A stretch of 64,000 nucleotides of DNA from the NCBI GenBank assembly GCA_016930575.1, contig JAFGGL010000028.1:1-64000 (forward strand). Reading direction: 5' to 3'. This stretch comes from Clostridiales bacterium. GTDB taxonomy: Bacteria > Bacillota > Clostridia > Christensenellales > Aristaeellaceae. Positions within the stretch are counted from its first letter, which is position 1. Each line of letters opens with the position of its first letter. Shown piece by piece: positions 7,036 to 43,496 of the stretch. The position numbers were made by a program, and so were the translations under genes. The notes under the pieces were generated by a model. It did not search any database. It was not told where the DNA came from and was given only the letters and a program-made list of their open reading frames with translations.

Positions 7036-7989
7036 ATGGCGAAGACAATCTATTTGGCAGGAGGTTGCTTCTGGGGGCTGGAGAAGCTGATGCAGTCCGT
7101 CCCGGGCGTCATTGACGCCGTCAGCGGCTACGCCAACGGCAGGGAGGGCGCCGAGCCCAGATACAAGGCCGTGTGCGCGGGCGGCACCGGCTTCCGGGAG
7201 ACCGTGCGCGTCACTTACGATTCCGCAAAAGTCAGCCTGGAGACCATTTTGTTCCAGTTTTTCTCCGTGATCGACCCGACGCAGAAAAACCGCCAGGCGC
7301 ATGATATCGGCGAGCAATACCAGACCGGCGTGTATTACACCGATGACAAAACGAAAAAGACCGTCGAGGCCGTCGCCGCCATTGAGCGCGAACGGCATAC
7401 GCCTTTCTATGTGGAGATCAAGCCGCTGACGAACTTTTTTAAGGCTGAGGAGTATCATCAGGATTACCTGGACAAGAACCCATCCGGCTACTGCCACATC
7501 CCGCCGGACGCGTTCCGCAAAGCCGCGAATATCACCGTGGACGCGGGCAAGTACCCGCGCCCGTCCGGGGAAGATCTTAAAATCAAGCTCACCGCCGAGC
7601 AGTACCGCATCACGCAGGAAGCGGGTACCGAAGCACCGTTTACCAACCCGCTCTGGCAGCACAGGGAAAAGGGCATCTACGTGGACGTCACCACCGGCGA
7701 GCCGCTGTTCGTCTCCGCCGATAAATTCAAATCCGGCTGCGGCTGGCCCGCGTTCTCCAAGCCTGTCGACCCCGCCGTCGTCGCGGAGCTTTTCGACGGC
7801 AGCCACGGCATGCGCCGCACCGAAGCGCGCTCCCGCGCGGGCAACGCGCACCTGGGCCATGTCTTCCAGAACGATCCCGAATCCCCCACCGGCACCCGCT
7901 ACTGCATCAACTCCGCCGCCCTGCGCTTCGTCCCCCTCGCCGACATGGACAAGGAAGGCTACGGCAAGTTCAGGGCGCTGGTGGAGTAG
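7036..7989 (+). CDS. msrAB: Bifunctional peptide methionine sulfoxide reductase MsrA/MsrB
   Basis: Repairs both S- and R-methionine sulfoxide in oxidised proteins. The 317-residue chain fuses MsrA (about 1-160; GCFWG with catalytic Cys11) to MsrB (about 185-317; SGCGWPAF, HLGHVF, and RYCINSAAL with catalytic Cys290). MsrB lacks the two CxxC zinc pairs: 'GIYVDVTTGEPLF' stands where the first pair would be, as in other zinc-free MsrAB fusions. The start at 7036 follows AAGGAG; the frame is open further upstream to 6952 but without a ribosome site. A possible promoter is TTCATA (6971) to TATTGT (6994), 17-base spacer. A family P hairpin (7996-8037) follows the stop. Confidence 0.95.
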   Translation: MAKTIYLAGGCFWGLEKLMQSVPGVIDAVSGYANGREGAEPRYKAVCAGGTGFRETVRVTYDSAKVSLETILFQFFSVIDPTQKNRQAHDIGEQYQTGVYYTDDKTKKTVEAVAAIERERHTPFYVEIKPLTNFFKAEEYHQDYLDKNPSGYCHIPPDAFRKAANITVDAGKYPRPSGEDLKIKLTAEQYRITQEAGTEAPFTNPLWQHREKGIYVDVTTGEPLFVSADKFKSGCGWPAFSKPVDPAVVAELFDGSHGMRRTEARSRAGNAHLGHVFQNDPESPTGTRYCINSAALRFVPLADMDKEGYGKFRALVE

Positions 7990-7995
7990 GACGGT

Positions 7996-8037
7996 CTCCT
8001 TCTCTTTTTGGTAAAAGAGAAGGAGCAAGAGAAAACC
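7996..8037 (-). repeat. Family P fragment: hairpin h6 and GGTTTTCTCTTGC box
   Basis: CTCCTTCTCTTTT pairs with AAAAGAGAAGGAG (7996-8025), followed by GCAAGAGAAAACC, the reverse complement of the conserved box found next to h6 in other copies. It begins 7 bases after the msrAB stop. Confidence 0.7.
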
Positions 8038-8105
8038 ATTCTGAGATAACTTATGTTATTATTAGTTGTATCAACTTATACATATACCTAATATGAGGAC
8101 TGATA

Positions 8106-9302
8106 ATGAGTAAGATAATCGAGATGTTAATTGAATTAAATAACCAAGGCTACTCTAGAGAAGAATTAAAAGAATCAGTAATTAGTGTACTTACTCCATA
8201 TTTTGATCATCCTGAAGTATTAGATGATTATTGGACAAGTTGTGATATTCTATCAGTCTTCGAGTATTTCATAAGGTATGGTTATAATGAAGACTTCCTT
8301 AACGGTCTCCGAAATGTTTTAGAAATTTTTAAAGAAGGTAGAATTAAAAATACAGATGCGTTATTTTCAATATTAACATACAATGAAGCACAAAAAAACT
8401 ATCTGCAACAAGAGAATAAAATGTGGACCGTGCGACAGTATGATTATGAGCTTGATAATGGAAACGATTTATATAAAACAGTAATGGATCTATTTCAACA
8501 TATAAAAAAAGCTATCGAGATTGGAGCAAAGCCATATATTTTTGAATTGCTAGCGACTATAAAACTCACGACTACATCAAAATGTGATTATTCCCGTGTC
8601 TTAAAAATGAAATTAGGTGTAGCCGTAATGAGTATAATCGATCAAAATAAACTACTTACTGAACTAATGATTCCTCCTCTAAAAATCAAATTATCTGATT
8701 GGCGCAATATAGCAGCGCATGAATCATATTGTATAGCTAATAACAATCAAATTGTTTGTACAAATAAAGATGACTCAGATGTATTTATATTGAGTCTTGA
8801 TGATCTTATTGATTATACACATAAAATCATTAGGACAATCAATATCTTTAGTATTGGACGATGTATTTTTACATATGACAACATTAGTGAACTTGCTGCT
8901 TATCAACAGAAAGATGAAAAACAACAAGGGCAACTCATACGAAATGAAATCCTTGAACACCGCTTAAGAGCAAGTTTTCTAAGCCAGAGTTTTTTCCTTG
9001 ATACCTTGGAAATAAGTGAAAACACGGCAACAGCTCATCTTGTTGATCTTCTTAATAACGGTACATTAGTTGGTGAAAAAATTCGGGATCGATATATACA
9101 CTCCTCACAATTTTTATTTCCCCTCTGGCAAAATTATCGTAAACGTTTATTACAGGTCTTCTATTACAATTCAAAAAAAACTGTTTGTTTTAAGACTTCT
9201 GTTATTGGCGATGTGTGTAGTAAATATAACAGTGGAGAAGAGAACCTAGATTATTTTGCAAAAAATGTTATTTTCGAGCATACCCAAGCAGATCAAAGCT
9301 AA
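8106..9302 (+). CDS. AT-rich HEPN-motif protein, candidate RNase or defence gene
   Basis: A 398-residue soluble protein with no full-length family match that I recognise. At residues 199-206 it carries W-RNIAAH-E (Arg200 to His205). This fits the R-N/D-x3-H signature of HEPN-domain RNases, and the next segment ('IVCTNKDDSDVFILSLDDLIDYTHKI') resembles the C-terminal part of such domains. The C-terminal third is unassigned. The gene is visibly AT-rich (about one third G+C by eye) amid G+C-rich DNA, uses many AAA/AAT/ATA codons and stands alone with AT-rich flanks, which suggests horizontal transfer. The start ATG follows TGAGGAC. HEPN proteins are often toxins or anti-phage RNases; that role here is inference. 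Confidence 0.6.
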   Translation: MSKIIEMLIELNNQGYSREELKESVISVLTPYFDHPEVLDDYWTSCDILSVFEYFIRYGYNEDFLNGLRNVLEIFKEGRIKNTDALFSILTYNEAQKNYLQQENKMWTVRQYDYELDNGNDLYKTVMDLFQHIKKAIEIGAKPYIFELLATIKLTTTSKCDYSRVLKMKLGVAVMSIIDQNKLLTELMIPPLKIKLSDWRNIAAHESYCIANNNQIVCTNKDDSDVFILSLDDLIDYTHKIIRTINIFSIGRCIFTYDNISELAAYQQKDEKQQGQLIRNEILEHRLRASFLSQSFFLDTLEISENTATAHLVDLLNNGTLVGEKIRDRYIHSSQFLFPLWQNYRKRLLQVFYYNSKKTVCFKTSVIGDVCSKYNSGEENLDYFAKNVIFEHTQADQS

Positions 9303-9603
9303 GTGCTAAAATATGCCACTTTTAACTGCAATTCTACTAAAATATTGAATAGTTCAGTGACGCTTCCTTAATAAATATATAGTATGTTTTAGACATATAG
9401 AAACGGCGAGACGAGCAAGTGGGAATTTTCCATCGCCTTTTTTATATCCATACCTTTTACGATATTCCAGCATTCAGCCTGTTCAGAAAGCCTGAGCTGC
9501 TAGGAAGCAAATCGGCAAGGAGCTGAGCGTACACAATCCGTACGTGATGCGACTTGCCGATGTAGCTGACACCGCAGATCGGGCTTTATGGACAGGCTGG
9601 GGG
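9303..9603. other. Intergenic region with terminator-like hairpin and nested inverted repeat
   Basis: No gene is convincing here. The first half is AT-rich like the preceding gene and contains a possible terminator (9405-9443). The second half returns to high G+C and contains a nested inverted repeat (9511-9561): ATCGGCAAG pairs with CTTGCCGAT, and inside it CGTAC pairs with GTACG. Short frames crossing it have no recognisable domain. Confidence 0.5.
9405..9443 (+). terminator. Possible rho-independent terminator after the HEPN-motif gene
   Basis: GGCGA (9405-9409) pairs with TCGCC (9433-9437), with a weaker inner TGG/CCA stem, followed by six T residues. The outer stem is short, so confidence is moderate. 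Confidence 0.4.
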
Positions 9604-11361
9604 TTATTGGAATTGATTGCGGTACAATTCCGCATACAACCCGTTCTTTTCCAGCAATTCCTCATGCGTGCCGCTTTCCTCGATCCGCCCGTCCTCCATC
9701 ACCAGGATACGGTCGCAGCTTTTCAGGCTTTCCAGGTTGTGTGAAATAATGAGCGCGGTCTTTACTTTCATCAGCTTCTGCAGGGATTTCCACACCACCT
9801 GCTGGCTCTCGGTATCCAGCGCCGCGGTGGGCTCGTCCAGCAGCAGGAATTTCGCGTCCGCCAGAAACGCGCGCGCGATGGCGATGCGCTGGCGCTGCCC
9901 GCCCGACAGGTTTTCCCCATTCTCGTCCACCAGTGTTTCATAGCCATGCGGCAGCGCTTCGATGAACTTGTGCGCGCCCGCCGCCTTCGCCGCGCGGACG
10001 ATCTCCTCTTCCGCCGGTTCCGCGCCGTCGCCGTAGCGCCCCATGGCGATATTTTCGCGCACGGTGCGGTGCAAAAGCGGCGCGCTTTGCTCTAGATAGA
10101 TCAATTTGGAGCGCCACTCGTTGGGACTGCACGCCGCCGAATCGACGCCGCCAAGGGTGATCGCGCCGGAATCCGGCTCGTAGAACTTCAGAAGCAGCTT
10201 GAACGCCGTCGTCTTGCCGCAGCCGGACGCGCCCACCAGCGCGACCTTCTCGCCGTTTTTTACGGTGAAGGATAGCCCGTTGAGCAGTTCGCTTTCCGGC
10301 AGGTAGCCAAACACCACGTCCGAAAACTCCAATGTGTCGCCGGTTTCCATCAAGCAATCCGTGAGCGTGTTGTCCTCCTGCGGAGACCGCAGCGCGTCCA
10401 GGACCCTGTCGCCCGAAACCGCCGAGGTGATTAAAAACCGCCAGGTATTCCCCATGCAGTTAATCATCTCAAACACGGCGCTTTGCAGCGGGAAGGTCAG
10501 CAGCAGCGACGCGAACTTCATCTCCCCGGCCCGGATCAGCACGATGCCCACCGAAAAGAACGTCACCAGCGATACCGCCGACAGCAGCGCGCTGACGGAG
10601 CGCAGGTGCACGTCCAGGTTTTTGGCGGCGACGCCGTCGGCTGCCAGGCTGTCGCTGGTATCCTCGTATGCGCCGAGTTTGGCCTTCACCGTGCCCCAGT
10701 ACCGGTGCGCCGTGTTGCCCGCGAGCAGGTCGGAAAACTCGCTCACCGCGGCGTCGGTCGCGCCGCGCAGCTGCACGTTGCGCCGGTGGAGCCTCCCGCC
10801 GAGGAAGATCGAACTGGTCAGCGCGGCGGCGCCGAAAATAAGCGGAACGAACGTCAGCCGCCAGTCCACCACCGCGATCGTCAGCATAGAAGCCAGGCCC
10901 TGCACGAGCGGGATGAAAAAGGTATGCATCAATCCCTGGAAATAAAAATTCTCCATGATCTGCATATCCGAGGTCAACAGCGTCATCGCTTCCCCGGAAT
11001 GCCTCCGCGCCGCAAAGGTTTCCGTCTGTCTCAGCCAGGTCGAAAGCAGTTTTTTCTGTATCCCCGCACGGATGCCAAGCCCTCCGCGCAGGTTGAACTG
11101 GTACCCGAGCACCACCAGCGGTACGAACGCCGCCAGTATCACCAGAAGCAACGTAAGCCTTGGTACGGCGGAGGTCCCGGCCTCGAAGTTTTGCATAGTC
11201 ACGCTTAATACCAGGCCGAACAACAAGGCGATGATATAACTGCCGATTCCCGCCAGCGTAACGCCGAGCAGGCATAAAAGCCACTTCGGCATGCCCAGGC
11301 GTATCATGCGGAAAACGGTTTTCATCACATGCCCAAACCGCACGTTTTGCCTACTCTCCAT
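9604..11361 (-). CDS. ABC exporter half-transporter, second subunit
   Basis: A 585-residue type IV ABC exporter half: about six membrane helices in residues 1-320, then a nucleotide-binding domain with Walker A GASGCGKTT, Q-loop 'YLEQSAP', signature LSGGQRQRIAIARA, Walker B LLLDEP and H-loop 'IISHN'. All ATP-site motifs are intact. Its ATG (11361) overlaps the 3' end of the partner gene by 11 bases, with GGAGGAGCAGG upstream, so translation is coupled. The two proteins very likely form a heterodimeric exporter in the membrane. The substrate is unknown: lipid, peptide or drug. Confidence 0.9.
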   Translation of the reverse strand: MESRQNVRFGHVMKTVFRMIRLGMPKWLLCLLGVTLAGIGSYIIALLFGLVLSVTMQNFEAGTSAVPRLTLLLVILAAFVPLVVLGYQFNLRGGLGIRAGIQKKLLSTWLRQTETFAARRHSGEAMTLLTSDMQIMENFYFQGLMHTFFIPLVQGLASMLTIAVVDWRLTFVPLIFGAAALTSSIFLGGRLHRRNVQLRGATDAAVSEFSDLLAGNTAHRYWGTVKAKLGAYEDTSDSLAADGVAAKNLDVHLRSVSALLSAVSLVTFFSVGIVLIRAGEMKFASLLLTFPLQSAVFEMINCMGNTWRFLITSAVSGDRVLDALRSPQEDNTLTDCLMETGDTLEFSDVVFGYLPESELLNGLSFTVKNGEKVALVGASGCGKTTAFKLLLKFYEPDSGAITLGGVDSAACSPNEWRSKLIYLEQSAPLLHRTVRENIAMGRYGDGAEPAEEEIVRAAKAAGAHKFIEALPHGYETLVDENGENLSGGQRQRIAIARAFLADAKFLLLDEPTAALDTESQQVVWKSLQKLMKVKTALIISHNLESLKSCDRILVMEDGRIEESGTHEELLEKNGLYAELYRNQFQ

Positions 11362-20246: not shown

Positions 20247-20265
20247 GGCTCTTGGGGCTTCCGCC

Positions 20266-20396
20266 TTACTTCTCTTTTCGAAAAAAGAGAAGTAAGCAAG
20301 AGAAAACCATATATAACGGCTGCGCATCGCTCGGCCGTTATTGTGGGATCACTAAGGGCATTGCCCTTAGTTGCGGGGTTTGAGGGCGCATAGCCC
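20266..20396 (-). repeat. Family P copy: h1-h2-h3-box-h6 (reverse orientation)
   Basis: Read on the minus strand: GGGCTATGCGCCC (h1, 20384-20396), CTAAGGGCAATGCCCTTAG (h2, 20352-20370), a TAACGGC/GCCGTTA stem (h3, 20314-20340), GGTTTTCTCTTGC (20296-20308), and TTACTTCTCTTTT paired with AAAAGAGAAGTAA (h6, 20266-20295). It fills the gap between two convergent genes. Confidence 0.75.
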
Positions 20397-38469: not shown

Positions 38470-38486
38470 GCCGCGCGACAGGGTTC

Positions 38487-38622
38487 TTGGGGCTTCCGCC
38501 CCAAACCCCGATCAGGGGCGGTGCCCCTGAACCCCACTATAAATGCCGCGCGGAACGCGCGGCATTTATGGATGGGTCAAGGGCAATCGCCCTTGTCAGG
38601 GTCTTAGGGGTGAAACCCCTAA
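38487..38622 (-). repeat. Family P full copy: h1-h2-h3-h4-h5 (reverse orientation)
   Basis: Read on the minus strand: TTAGGGGTTTCACCCCTAA (h1), CAAGGGCGATTGCCCTTG (h2), a 31-base h3 with AAATGCCGCGCG/CGCGCGGCATTT arms (38539-38569), CAGGGGCACCGCCCCTG (h4), TTGGGGCGGAAGCCCCAA (h5). It has the same order as the copies at 52146 and 58452. Confidence 0.8.
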
Positions 38623-38699
38623 AACCTCCCGTCGTTCCTTTTTCTCCCATCCTGTGCTACAATGGGTTTCGTACACGGTTTTGGGAGGAGGGCCGAGTT

Positions 38700-39332
38700 G
38701 TGGCCGCATTATTTTTCACCGCGCTGGCCGTAGGCTTTTCGGGCGCGATGATGCCCGGCTCGCTTTTGACCTACACCATCCGCCAATCGCTCAAGGAAGG
38801 CCCCAGGGTGGGGTTCGTCGTCATCCTCGGGCACGCTATGCTCGAGCTCGTGCTGATCGCCGGCATCTTTCTGGGGCTGGACATGGTGCTGAAGTCCGAC
38901 GCCGCGCAGATCACCATCGGCATACTCGGCGGCCTGCTGCTGTGCTACATCGGCGCGGATATGATCCTGAAGGCCGCGCGCCGCAAAGTGAGCATCTCCA
39001 CGGAGGCGAAAACCCGCAATTCCGAGCACATGGTGCTTTCCGGCGCGGTATTGAGCCTCGCCAACCCGTACTTCCTGCTGTGGTGGGCGGTCATCGGCCT
39101 GGGTTTCCTCACCGAAGCCTACCGCGATTTTGCCGTCTGGGGCGTCGTGGTGTTTTTCCTCGGCCATATCCTGGCGGATTTCTCCTGGTACGGGCTGATC
39201 TCCTTTTTAGTCGGCACGACGCGCAGGTTCATCAAGGACAAACCCTACCGCATCATCATCATGATCCTCGGCGGGCTGCTGATCTTCTTCGGCGCGCGTT
39301 TTTTGATCGGCGCTATCGGTGCATTGCTTTAA
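38700..39332 (+). CDS. LysE-family exporter
   Basis: A 210-residue, six-helix inner-membrane protein of the LysE/RhtB superfamily, which exports amino acids or related small molecules. Family features are 'GFSGAMMPGSLLTYTIRQSLKEG' in two parts (about 12-34), 'GHAMLELVLIAG', and 'SLANPYFLLWWAVIG' (about 118-132). The GTG at 38700 follows GGGAGGAGGG; the upstream open frame overlaps a family P repeat and GH28 and is rejected. The TAA stop overlaps the first bases of the terminal repeat of the family R element at 39331. Substrate unknown. Confidence 0.88.
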   Translation: MAALFFTALAVGFSGAMMPGSLLTYTIRQSLKEGPRVGFVVILGHAMLELVLIAGIFLGLDMVLKSDAAQITIGILGGLLLCYIGADMILKAARRKVSISTEAKTRNSEHMVLSGAVLSLANPYFLLWWAVIGLGFLTEAYRDFAVWGVVVFFLGHILADFSWYGLISFLVGTTRRFIKDKPYRIIIMILGGLLIFFGARFLIGAIGALL

Positions 39333-39396
39333 GGTAAACGCTGACTAAATCCCTCGCACGCTGCTATGCTTTATTTCCGCCATCTTGCGCCTGCGA

Positions 39397-39512
39397 TACC
39401 CACTCGCTTTTATTGTCGCGGATATCGCTGCCGCTTATCCGCTCTGTAAAAGCTCCCACCTTCGGGTCGCTCACGGCTGTGCCGTGGTGTCCACTAGACA
39501 CACGCTTCCCTA
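39397..39512 (+). repeat. Family R, module A within R1
   Basis: TTGTC (39413-39417), stem a GCGGATA/TATCCGC (39418-39442), TCTGTAAA, stem b CACGGC-TGT-GCCGTG (39472-39486), stem c GTGTC/GACAC (39487-39501), ACGCTT. Compare 4736 and 20904. Confidence 0.8.
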
Positions 39513-39520
39513 CGGTGCCC

Positions 39521-39635
39521 GACGTAGCGCTGCTACTACTGGCTACGGCCTCGCCCTGCACTTCGTTTGCGCGAGGCTACGCGCTTCATTACCTTCGGTA
39601 ATCTCGGGCGCTAGTCGGCCAAACGGCCTCCCTTA
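39521..39635 (+). repeat. Family R, module B within R1
   Basis: Stem d GTAGC-GCT-GCTAC (39524-39536), stem e GCCTCGC/GCGAGGC (39548-39577) around GCACTTCG, stem f ATTACC-TTC-GGTAAT (39588-39602), stem g GGCC-AAAC-GGCC (39617-39628), then TCCCTTA. Stems f and g covary with the other copies. Confidence 0.75.
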
Positions 39636-39750
39636 CGGATTTCCCAAACCCAACCTGACGAAAATCCAACACGGCATCGCACAAGCTCTTAATCATCGTT
39701 TGCCTTGTGTTTACTTTGCTCGCTAAATAAAATTCCGAAAGGAAAATCCG

Positions 39751-40040: not shown

Positions 40041-40101
40041 TTGACATCTGCCCTGTACGTCCCTATAATTACTCTATCTGATATAGTAATCAGGTAGAGT
40101 A
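40041..40101 (+). promoter_or_regulatory. Consensus promoter and dyad operator of the padR operon
   Basis: TTGACA (40041-40046) and TATAAT (40064-40069), 17-base spacer: a perfect sigma-A promoter. It is followed by a 13-base inverted repeat, TACTCTATCTGAT (40070-40082) and ATCAGGTAGAGTA (40089-40101), with one mismatch and a six-base centre, covering the start site. It is almost certainly the PadR operator, giving autoregulation. Confidence 0.85.
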
Positions 40102-40123
40102 CTTTGCGAAAGGCGGCGTTTTC

Positions 40124-40477
40124 ATGGCGATCTCGGCAGACCTGATCCGCGGGCATCTGGATGCGATCCTTCTGCGCCTGCTGATGGAAAAGGACCGCTA
40201 CGGCTATGAGATTGCCAAGGAGATCGGCCTGCGTACGGAGGGACGCCTGGAAATCAAAGAAGCGACGCTGTACGCGGCCATCCAGCGGCTGGAGCGCAAC
40301 AAGCTCATCGTTTCCTACTCCGGCCAGGTCACCCACGGCCGCGCCCGCAAGTACTACAAGCCCACGCCGGGCGGCAGGGCGTACTACCGCGAAAAACGAT
40401 TGGAATGGCTTGCCATCAAAGACGTCATCGACAAAATATTGGAGGATGAAACAAGTGAAAATCAGACAACACGTTGA
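40124..40477 (+). CDS. PadR-family transcriptional regulator
   Basis: A 117-residue winged-helix repressor. The family pattern 'GHLDAILLRLLMEKDRYGYEIAKEI' in parts (about 9-33), 'IKEATLYAAIQRLERNKLI' (recognition helix, about 44-62) and 'RKYYKPTPGGRAYY' (wing) is clear. The C-terminus is helical and short (PadR subfamily 2 type), for dimerisation. It is the first gene of a four-gene coupled operon with the HAAS protein and two WWP-repeat proteins, a common pairing (PadR with HAAS/DUF1700). The operator at 40070-40101 suggests that it represses its own operon in response to an unknown envelope or ligand signal. Confidence 0.93.
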   Translation: MAISADLIRGHLDAILLRLLMEKDRYGYEIAKEIGLRTEGRLEIKEATLYAAIQRLERNKLIVSYSGQVTHGRARKYYKPTPGGRAYYREKRLEWLAIKDVIDKILEDETSENQTTR

Positions 40478-40877
40478 AGAAATGTTTCGGGACGTGCCCG
40501 ACAGCGACGAGAAGCAAAGCCTGCTGGGCGAGATGATCGCCGACGCCGAGGAAAAGGCCGCCGACCTGATGGCCGACGGCAAGGATGAGGAAGACGCCGT
40601 CAACAAAGCGCTGGTGGAACTGGGCGACCTTTCCGAAATCAAGTTGAACCTGATGGGTGTCTCGCCCAGGCGTGCGGGCGGCGGGCAGCGCAGGCGCCGC
40701 AACAACCTGCTCTATTCGGTGATCGGCAGCCTGCTGATCATCGCGCTGATGGTGTTCATCAACCTGTATTATTCGCCCGATACCATCTGGTTTGTGTACC
40801 CGATGTTCGGCGTCATCTGGTGGCCGCTGTCGGTGTTCCTGCACTACCTCAACCACAGGGACGGTGACGGCAAATGA
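40455..40877 (+). CDS. HAAS-domain (DUF1700/permease prefix) protein with one WWP two-helix repeat
   Basis: A 140-residue protein: N-terminal helical HAAS domain (about 1-65; 'IRQHVEEMFRDVPDSDEKQSL', split, and 'LMADGKDEEDAVNKALVELGD'), a basic linker, then two membrane helices with the motif 'FVYPMFGVIWWPLSVFLHYL' (about 113-132). The start GTG at 40455 lies 9 bases after GGAGG; an in-frame ATG at 40446 abuts that site and is unlikely. It overlaps padR by 23 bases and the next gene by four (ATGA). HAAS proteins pair with PadR regulators and are linked to envelope stress; the mechanism here is unknown. Confidence 0.82.
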   Translation: MKIRQHVEEMFRDVPDSDEKQSLLGEMIADAEEKAADLMADGKDEEDAVNKALVELGDLSEIKLNLMGVSPRRAGGGQRRRRNNLLYSVIGSLLIIALMVFINLYYSPDTIWFVYPMFGVIWWPLSVFLHYLNHRDGDGK

Positions 40878-41359
40878 AAAAATCCCTGCAGACGGCCGTG
40901 TACGTCTCCGGCGGGATTATCGTTTCGCTGATCCTGTTAAACCGCCTCACGTCGTCCTACCCCTGGTGCATATACCCGATTTTCGGCATCCTCTGGTGGC
41001 CGTTGAGCGCATACTTTTTGGGCCGCAGGGAGCCGCTGCACTATGCCGTATACGGCACGGCGCTTTTGTACGCGCTGTTCCTGCTGATCTATCTGTTCTC
41101 AAGCCCCGGCGCGCACCCGTGGTTCCTCTACCCGATGCTGGGCGTCTTCTGGTGGCCGCTGTCGGTGTGGGGGTCGATGGTCGGCGCGAAGCGCTTTTCC
41201 GTCACGGCGACGCTGTATATCGCCCTGATGCTGCTGGTCATCAACCTGCTTTCCTCGCCGGGCTTCTGGTGGTGGCTTTGCCCCGCCGTACCCGTGCTGT
41301 GGTGGCCAGCGGCCGTATACCTGAAGGACAGAAACCGCAAGGAGAGTGAAACGCAATGA
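40874..41359 (+). CDS. Membrane protein with three tandem WWP two-helix repeats
   Basis: A 161-residue protein consisting almost entirely of three repeats of about 50 residues. The repeat ends are 'PWCIYPIFGILWWPLSAYF' (about 34-52), 'PWFLYPMLGVFWWPLSVW' and 'WWWLCPAVPVLWWPAAVYL'. Each unit has two hydrophobic helices joined by a Ser-Pro-Gly/Ala-His-Pro-Trp turn, like the single unit in the upstream HAAS protein. Its ATG overlaps that gene's stop and its stop overlaps the next start (both ATGA). It looks like internal triplication of the 2TM unit. Function unknown. Confidence 0.8.
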   Translation: MKKSLQTAVYVSGGIIVSLILLNRLTSSYPWCIYPIFGILWWPLSAYFLGRREPLHYAVYGTALLYALFLLIYLFSSPGAHPWFLYPMLGVFWWPLSVWGSMVGAKRFSVTATLYIALMLLVINLLSSPGFWWWLCPAVPVLWWPAAVYLKDRNRKESETQ

Positions 41360-42780
41360 ATAAACAACTTCGCGCCGCGCTGGTATACTCCGCCATGATC
41401 ATCGCGACGGTCGTGACCGTCAACCTGCTGACGTCGCCCGGATTTCTGTGGTTTGTTTTCCCGGTTTTCGGGCTGCTCTGGTGGCCGCTGAGCGTGTACT
41501 TCGCGGGGAAAAAGAAGCCGTTCGCTTATGCCGTGTGCGGTGCGGCGCTGCTGTGCGGCCTTTTCCTGGTCACGTACCTGCTTACCAGCCCCGGCGCGCA
41601 TCCGTGGTTCATCTACCCGATGCTGGGCGTCGTATGGTGGCCACTGAGCGTATACTTCACAGGAAAAAAGAAGCCTCTGCCCTTCGCGCTGCTGGGTTTT
41701 GCCGTCATTGCGGCGTTGTTTGTCCTCCTTTGGGTGCTCACGGGCACAGGCACGCATCCGTGGTTCGTCTACCCCATCCTCGGCGTGTTCTGGTGGCCGC
41801 TGTCGGTGTGGGGCGCCAAAAAAGGCGCACGCGCCTTTGCCGTAGCGGGCGGCCTGTACACGATCCTCATGCTGCTCGCCGTCAACCTCGTCACATCGCC
41901 CGCGTTCTGGTGGTGGGTATACCCGGCGTTCTTTGCGCTGTGGTGGCCCGCGTCGGTGCTTCTGGGCAAACGGGCCAATACGCTCGCGTTTGCCCTGGGC
42001 TCCTCCGTCGCGGCCTCGCTGTTCCTTATCGTGATGTATTTTATCCAGACGCCGAACGCCGAGCCCTGGTACCTGTACGCGCTGCTACCGCTGTTCTGGT
42101 GGCCGGTCTGCACGCTGTTACGCAAGCGCGTGAGCGAACTGCGGATCCTTCTCATCAGCGTGATCGCCTTCACGGCGTACTACACAGGACTGATCGCGCT
42201 GCTGCACGGCATATCTTCCCTGCTGTCGGTCTTCCTGCTGATCGCCGGGGTGTGGCTCGTGTACGCCATGAGCGTGAGCAAGCACCGCAACGCCTTCGGC
42301 TTCGCCGCGATCAACGCGGCGCTGCTCATCGCCTATTTCCTCCTCGTGCATACCCTGGTCACGCCGGACGCGCACCCGTGGTACTGGTACACCTTCTTCC
42401 CGCTTGTCTGGTGGCCGGTCACCGCGGAGCTTAAGGAAAAAGCAATGAAGCCCGTTCCCGTAGCCGTTGGCGCGGTCCTGGGCCTCGCGTGCTACGGCGC
42501 GCTGAACTGGTTCGTCTCCCCCACAACGCCGTGGATTTTGTTCCTCTCCTACCCCGTCGCCGCAGCCGTGATCGGCAGCGTCTGCCGCGCGCGGAAAGCC
42601 TGGGTGGCGCTCTCCGTCTGGATGACGCTTGCCGGCATCGCGTACTTCGCATCTATCAACCTCGTATACTCCCCGCACACCATCTGGGCTGTCTACCCCG
42701 CCTTCGGCCTCCTCTGGTGGCCCCTGAGCATGCTGCTCTTCGGCCGCAAGGTGAAGGACGGGGACGAAGAGACAGCGTAG
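41356..42780 (+). CDS. Membrane protein with about nine tandem WWP two-helix repeats
   Basis: A 474-residue polytopic protein made of about nine units of 45-52 residues, so about 18 helices. Seven units keep the WWP core, for example 'WFVFPVFGLLWWPLSVYF', 'PWFIYPMLGVVWWPLSVYF', 'PWFVYPILGVFWWPLSVW', 'PWYWYTFFPLVWWPVTAEL' and the last 'WAVYPAFGLLWWPLSMLLF'; units six and eight are degenerate. Short basic loops (KKK, KRA, RKRV) follow each WWP, consistent with positive-inside topology. It is the last gene of the padR operon, with a family P hairpin right after the stop. It resembles no transporter family that I know; scaffold or lipid-interacting roles are guesses. Confidence 0.8.
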   Translation: MNKQLRAALVYSAMIIATVVTVNLLTSPGFLWFVFPVFGLLWWPLSVYFAGKKKPFAYAVCGAALLCGLFLVTYLLTSPGAHPWFIYPMLGVVWWPLSVYFTGKKKPLPFALLGFAVIAALFVLLWVLTGTGTHPWFVYPILGVFWWPLSVWGAKKGARAFAVAGGLYTILMLLAVNLVTSPAFWWWVYPAFFALWWPASVLLGKRANTLAFALGSSVAASLFLIVMYFIQTPNAEPWYLYALLPLFWWPVCTLLRKRVSELRILLISVIAFTAYYTGLIALLHGISSLLSVFLLIAGVWLVYAMSVSKHRNAFGFAAINAALLIAYFLLVHTLVTPDAHPWYWYTFFPLVWWPVTAELKEKAMKPVPVAVGAVLGLACYGALNWFVSPTTPWILFLSYPVAAAVIGSVCRARKAWVALSVWMTLAGIAYFASINLVYSPHTIWAVYPAFGLLWWPLSMLLFGRKVKDGDEETA

Positions 42781-42786
42781 GAACGT

Positions 42787-42860
42787 CTTACTTCTCTTTT
42801 GGCAAAAGAGAAGTAAGCAAGAGAAAACCATATACAAGGCCGCGCTTACAGCGCGGCCTT
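42787..42860 (-). repeat. Family P fragment: h3-box-h6 (reverse orientation)
   Basis: On the minus strand: AAGGCCGCGC/GCGCGGCCTT (42836-42860), GGTTTTCTCTTGC (42817-42829), CTTACTTCTCTTTT/AAAAGAGAAGTAAG (42787-42817). It starts 7 bases after the stop of the nine-repeat gene. Confidence 0.75.
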
Positions 42861-43454: not shown

Positions 43455-43496
43455 GATTTTCTCTTGTCTACTTCTCTTTTTTCCAAAAGAGAAGTA
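43455..43496 (+). repeat. Family P fragment: box-h6
   Basis: GATTTTCTCTTGTC followed by TACTTCTCTTTT/AAAAGAGAAGTA (43469-43496), between the convergent Cys-cluster gene and the EamA gene. Confidence 0.65.

Follow-up and report, generated by a model that had tools for sequence, protein, structure and literature searches.

The DNA analysed here, hereafter the window, is a stretch of 64,000 nucleotides (positions 1 to 64,000 of contig JAFGGL010000028.1) from the genome of a Clostridiales bacterium (GCA_016930575.1). Four coupled genes on its forward strand (40124–42780) encode, in this order, a PadR-type repressor, a HAAS-like protein with one two-helix unit, a protein of three such units and a protein of nine. 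We read this operon, with about even confidence, as an autoregulated membrane-sensing switch in the style of HAAS–PadR pairs, in which the hairpin of the sensor would have been multiplied into a separate array protein.

The four genes and their repeat units

The padR gene (40124–40477, + strand) encodes 117 amino acids and passes the Pfam cut-off for the PadR winged-helix domain (PF03551; 65.5 versus 27 bits), which confirms the PadR operon that an earlier note had placed at these coordinates. The 3′ end of padR is overlapped by the gene for the HAAS-like protein (143 amino acids; 40446–40877, +), which starts 32 nucleotides before the end of padR; in its product, a helical domain predicted to be cytoplasmic (about 40485–40643, +) precedes the single hairpin unit (40707–40847, +; unit profile E 7.4e-22). 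Overlaps of 4 nucleotides join this gene to the 3-unit gene (161 amino acids; 40874–41359, +), and the latter to the 9-unit gene (474 amino acids; 41356–42780, +). With the unit profile, the units of the shorter array (all +) were located at 40892–41026, 41036–41176 and 41189–41335, and those of the longer array (also +) at 41368–41514 (unit 1), 41521–41670 (unit 2), 41677–41823 (unit 3), 41830–41973 (unit 4), 41983–42129 (unit 5), 42295–42441 (unit 7) and 42601–42750 (unit 9, the last); the boundaries of unit 6 (42142–42291), which lacks the Trp-Trp-Pro (WWP) motif, are taken from the spacing, and unit 8 (42451–42600) was recognised by comparison with orthologues. A near-perfect hairpin directly 3′ of the 9-unit gene (42787–42817) is a likely terminator; short stretches related to it lie near 43457 and at 20254–20325 in the window.

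In the 474-residue protein, WWP recurs at residues 42, 94, 146, 196, 248, 352 and 454, and its counterpart at 300 and 404, giving a repeat step of 50–52 residues. The possibility that these proteins lack significant self-similarity was tested by shuffling (100 shuffles per pair), and strong self-similarity was found instead, with Z-scores of 3.8 to 23.5 among all units except 6 and 8, which scored about −2 to 1 and about −2 to 4, respectively, against the other units. A hidden Markov model (HMM) built from 97 Bacilli units only, to avoid circularity, recovered the HAAS-linked unit, all three units of the small protein and seven of the nine units of the long protein at E ≤ 0.001 (E-values for 1e6 sequences); unit 8 was matched at E 2.8 and unit 6 was not matched. 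From sequence, we thus count nine units in the long protein, seven of them clear, one recognisable via orthologues and one placed from its spacing and a weak match, so that "about nine" is correct. The profiles and the spacing together confirm the earlier description of one two-helix unit present at one, three and about nine copies, the single copy following a HAAS-like domain.

Membrane topology and family assignment

The inter-hairpin linkers of the 9-unit protein contain 26 Lys or Arg residues, versus none in the hairpin loops. Under the positive-inside rule, each unit is therefore predicted to be a two-helix membrane hairpin with both ends inside. The AlphaFold2 (AF2) model of the 9-unit protein is poor (predicted local distance difference test, pLDDT, 53; predicted template modelling score, pTM, 0.41), yet it places 18 helices in order; the 3-unit protein was modelled, from a six-row alignment, with six helices (pLDDT 78, pTM 0.59). 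The 9-unit model is too poor for a fold search. For the 3-unit model, a Foldseek search of the PDB and of viral models found nothing at E ≤ 0.001, and the best VIA-align hit (9e0h_A; Z 8.0, root-mean-square deviation 4.2, 105 aligned residues) falls in a range common for helical bundles; at the level of these models, no convincing fold match is apparent. The unit profile likewise found no match among the sequences of solved structures.

Neither the 3-unit nor the 9-unit protein exceeded the curated cut-off of any family in Pfam or NCBIfam, so that the placement in an established family, which the earlier note had named as an outcome that would count against it, was tested and not obtained. The nearest named family for the hairpin is Pfam 2TM (PF13239), which has the same size and two-helix layout and is matched weakly by 10 of 16 units (best E 0.0058). 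The array of Gracilibacillus dipsosauri (Bacilli) passes the 2TM cut-off (26.0 versus 24.8 bits), whereas the window proteins remain below it (19.6 and 14.5 bits, the 9-unit protein having no match). Pfam DUF6320 (PF19845) is also a multi-helix membrane domain and resembles the Bacilli arrays weakly, below its cut-off (up to 28.5 versus 29.9 bits), but it had no match in the window proteins, and a profile comparison reached a probability of only 50. The DUF6320 members fetched are also not WWP arrays, and most of them, by our own reading of the motif, start with a zinc-ribbon-like CxxC...CxxC stretch. Elsewhere in the window's genome, a DUF6320 protein (G000:C5:23524-24072) exceeds the Pfam cut-off at 51.3 bits. 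Matches to the Pfam family Piezo1 THU, from one unit (E 0.04) and from the HAAS-like protein of G. dipsosauri (E 0.05), were rejected as chance level.

These comparisons bear on the possibility that the array is primarily an effector (a transporter, flippase or channel-like protein of fused hairpins), the level of which would be set by the HAAS–PadR pair, with the HAAS-linked hairpin serving as an anchor. We consider this possible but distinctly doubtful. HAAS domains fused or linked to other membrane effectors, such as one of the FtsW/RodA type, are described in PMC11237479, and in the Listeria lltR operon overproduction of the DUF1700 membrane protein by itself gives the phenotype, according to PMC6624303. 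Against an effector, no known transporter family or fold was matched (Pfam, NCBIfam, Foldseek), no conserved charged or polar residue was seen within the helices beyond N19 (27 of 31 units), and there is true homology between the HAAS-linked hairpin and the array units, which would be unnecessary for a mere anchor.

Distribution and history of the array

Genomes of the window's lineage were surveyed with profile A1 (E ≤ 1e-5) and those of the G. dipsosauri lineage with a broader profile, A5 (E ≤ 1e-4), so the two sets of rates are not strictly comparable. Profile A1 detected matches in 5 of 396 genomes of the window's order, 2 of 391 of its class and 1 of 398 of its phylum, counts that include the window's own genome each time, with one of the five order genomes having a weak single match. 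A genome-contig scan yielded two loci, one of them in G. dipsosauri. From that species outward, profile A5 detected matches in 42 of 159 genomes of its family, 24 of 259 of its order and 7 of 190 of its class (overlapping samples, each including the G. dipsosauri genome). Among the Bacilli genomes listed, the number of matched units did not exceed five, a number reached by 30 of the 42 in the family.

The order padR, HAAS-like gene with one unit, and 4-unit array was found in 15 of 15 Bacilli loci in one set and in 18 of 20 loci with flanks in another; among the genomes with a match, 23 distinct Bacilli genomes were examined for operon order, and 21 had the three-gene operon intact. The exceptions are L095, in which a TnpB-type insertion follows padR and the HAAS-like protein carries two units, and L096, an operon remnant without padR. 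At L095 the TnpB-type open reading frame (ORF) lies between padR and the two-unit HAAS-like protein (about 7397–9747), the second unit of which groups with last array units; this arrangement may be a fusion by deletion in an operon undergoing decay. Five Clostridia, the window among them, have padR, the HAAS-like gene with one unit and a long array, and a stand-alone PadR adjoins in all of them. Outside the window, these arrays comprise eight units in G062, G201 and G505 (that of G505 ending at the contig end, within the eighth unit) and nine in G102. No fourth gene is conserved, beyond a C92-like ORF below the Pfam cut-off in four Bacilli loci, and we therefore regard padR, the HAAS-like gene and the array as the unit. 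That ORF (L041:6846-7421, and similar in L082, L084 and L092) lies directly downstream of the array and has a weak likeness to C92 permuted papain-type proteins (E 0.0076).

Other neighbours vary. At L088 (6053–7785) the array operon is directly followed by another PadR gene (E 4e-14), by a gene for a small protein and by one more ORF, which in our reading resemble a further PadR envelope cluster. Genes that we take to encode a GntR-type regulator and an ABC transporter come after the array in G062, in the same direction (L009:3230-6704). In G163 a neighbour of PadR has permease prefix domain 1 (39.5 bits) and then apparently two more distant hairpins (L055:5710-6348); it could form a bridge to other membrane proteins of the HAAS type.

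A tree of 147 units, from which the L096 units and matches below 8 bits were left out (window unit 6 being added by hand), grouped units mostly by their position in the array, although deep branches in a tree of such 50-residue units should be read as weak evidence. The HAAS-linked units (support 0.90, n = 25) and the last array units (0.93, n = 25), to which unit 9 of the window belongs, form sister groups (0.93, n = 50). In Clostridia, the fourth unit from the end groups with the second unit of Bacilli (0.98, n = 22), and the third-from-last (0.94, n = 7) and penultimate (0.85, n = 6) units form groups of their own; one second and one third unit from Bacilli lie outside their positional groups. 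Because units group by position, an array of several distinct units would be older than these lineages or would have been passed between them, with lengthening in Clostridia. In a separate tree, the units of the 3-unit protein paired with units 1, 2/3 and 4 of the longer array (support 0.90, 0.90 and 0.96).

Units 6 and 8 had been described as decayed, a claim that found no support. Each of the five clostridial arrays has the deviant form of unit 8 as its penultimate unit (clade support 0.99 in the separate tree, n = 6). As the penultimate unit is deviant in every clostridial array, unit 8 is conserved and specialised, and its independent decay is rejected. Unit 6 of the window falls in the same clade, with unit 5 falling beside unit 7, and its independent decay is unlikely, though the match is weak: it scored 11.6 bits against the penultimate-unit HMM, narrowly above the best of 500 shuffles (11.1 bits), and did not beat shuffles with the other unit HMMs. 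Given that units 5 and 6 fall with units 7 and 8, a two-unit block was probably duplicated.

The positional pattern also bears on a passive alternative, suggested in the earlier note, in which the array would act as a membrane scaffold or order lipids through its Trp and Pro belts, with regulation doing no more than matching dose. The array proteins contain 5–7.5% Trp and 5–7.5% Pro, and all 31 aligned units share Trp 29, Trp 40 and Pro 41 (alignment numbering), which would fit such a role; we nevertheless hold it quite unlikely, in that a uniform scaffold would have no need of position-specific units, conserved as such between Clostridia and Bacilli.

Selection was assessed from the ratio of nonsynonymous to synonymous substitution rates (dN/dS) in pairs of Bacilli relatives with more than 65% identity and dS of 0–2. 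For the 4-unit arrays, the eight pairs listed (of nine) gave 0.12–0.19, and for the HAAS-like proteins the eight listed (of 24) gave 0.06–0.11; in these relatives, the values for arrays support the proposal of repeated duplication with selection. A further possibility, that the long and extra arrays of the window arose by repeat expansion and are in the course of losing their function, seems very unlikely to us. In its favour, unit 6 can hardly be recognised, the 3-unit gene is present in no other locus examined, and two Bacilli loci show decay (the TnpB-type insertion at L095 and the remnant at L096). Every frame in the window is nonetheless open and coupled, the last three units align with orthologues along their length, and arrays of eight or nine units are present in four other clostridial genomes.

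As for the surroundings of the operon, short dispersed repeats lie just 5′ of it (39332–39705 and 38482–38626), with many partial copies in the window's genome at about 72–96% identity and some in genomes of the same genus. In an empty-site comparison, the operon flanks matched piecemeal, on separate contigs, in five same-genus genomes. The window contained no matches to RNA families, no tRNAs and no PADLOC match to a defence system. With tblastn, the 9-unit protein had no matches in 72,556 plasmid records or in 50,697 phage records, and the G. dipsosauri array had none in the plasmid records, negatives that speak for the searched collections only; a scan of viral contigs gave 81 pattern matches, of which none was confirmed.

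Regulation and a proposed membrane-sensing switch

By direct reading, the predicted padR promoter (40041–40069, +) consists of TTGACA (40041–40046) and TATAAT (40064–40069) separated by a 17-nucleotide spacer. A probable PadR operator (40067–40104) is formed by an inverted repeat with arms at 40067–40082 and 40089–40104 (88% complementary), and its boxes, ATTACTCTATC (40068–40078) and GATATAGTAAT (40080–40090), lie at the −10 box; the placement of TTGACA relative to the boxes is repeated upstream of padR in relatives. ATTACTCTATC has a single occurrence in the window's genome, at the predicted padR operator; in 23 of the 25 loci scored (L096, without padR, not being among these), from both classes, the region upstream of padR carries it with at most one mismatch. 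The two misses are L053, scored from an upstream start and with boxes visible, and L091, with two mismatches. Boxes of this type often form a divergent pair, one next to the −35 and one over the −10. The conservation of ATTACTCTATC at the padR promoter across both classes strongly indicates that this PadR regulates its own operon; it would bind at the predicted operator.

The part of PMC11237479 consulted proposes that membrane signals can pass through HAAS–PadR pairs instead of two-component systems, and mentions fusions of HAAS to uncharacterised 2TM, 4TM and 6TM (transmembrane) domains. As in those systems, a PadR gene here adjoins a gene for a membrane protein that begins with a cytoplasmic domain of three helices; unlike in the systems covered by that part of the source, the fused hairpin is also found as a separate tandem array of four, eight or nine units in the same operon. 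The Listeria lltR operon, as presented in PMC6624303, resembles the window in that a PadR repressor controls a DUF1700 membrane protein, the gene for which follows that of the repressor and is strongly derepressed in an lltR mutant, but its third gene encodes a DUF4097 protein and not a hairpin array. In the open PMC literature searched, no description was found of a partner array built from the sensor's own hairpin.

For the proposed switch, the order of the genes, the homology of the units, their charge pattern, the conserved operator and, in Bacilli relatives, purifying selection were observed, and the regulatory wiring is well supported. In favour of this reading are the gene order, the boxes, the unit sisterhood, the charge pattern, the lack of a conserved fourth gene and the published HAAS–PadR model, and the operon probably reports the state of the cell membrane. 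We infer a contact between the HAAS-like protein and PadR, co-assembly of the HAAS-like protein with the array, a membrane signal and an activity of the array. PadR, seated on the inverted boxes at its own promoter, would keep the operon low; the HAAS-like protein would be the link, its cytoplasmic helical domain being joined to one membrane hairpin and passing the signal to PadR. The array, a chain of like hairpins in uniform orientation, would be the membrane partner of the HAAS-like protein, its last unit being the nearest relative of the HAAS-linked hairpin, and the hairpins of both proteins would probably pack next to each other within a single membrane assembly. If the membrane were disturbed (in its lipids, its thickness or through an inserted compound), hairpin packing would change, upon which the HAAS-like domain would alter or release PadR and the operon would be induced; the additional array made would then protect or stabilise the membrane.

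Several points weigh against this switch. The structure models of the 9-unit and 3-unit proteins are weak, and no locus examined other than that of the window has the 3-unit gene. The HAAS-like protein of the window departs from HAAS–PadR systems in scoring below the cut-off of Pfam HAAS (PF22564; 10.6 versus 27 bits) and in lacking the GxP motif, the proposed site of contact with PadR in the third HAAS helix; we therefore use the label "HAAS-like". G-x-P was present within the first 90 residues in 3 of 30 rows scanned, rows that include repeats of one protein and one over-long window frame. The stretch that fails PF22564 does pass NCBIfam perm_prefix_1 (permease prefix domain 1, NF038403; 42.2 versus 30 bits).

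A more specific form of the switch, which we think rather unlikely, is a pseudo-symmetric assembly in which the HAAS-linked hairpin would dock beside the last array unit, its near twin, and the number of hairpins would size a membrane gauge read by PadR, in one step and without a kinase. Hairpin totals, given as array plus HAAS-linked hairpins, are 4+1 in Bacilli, 8 or 9+1 in Clostridia and 9+3+1 in the window.

HAAS–PadR pairs are known; in this operon the sensor's own hairpin has been copied into a separate and conserved membrane protein built of repeats. The natural series of 4-, 8- and 9-unit arrays is suited to testing the effect of repeat number on a membrane protein, and the clear predicted operator offers a handle on the proposed kinase-free HAAS–PadR switch. 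The array operon is common in one family of Bacilli (the 42 of 159 genomes above), in which a named species, G. dipsosauri, has one.

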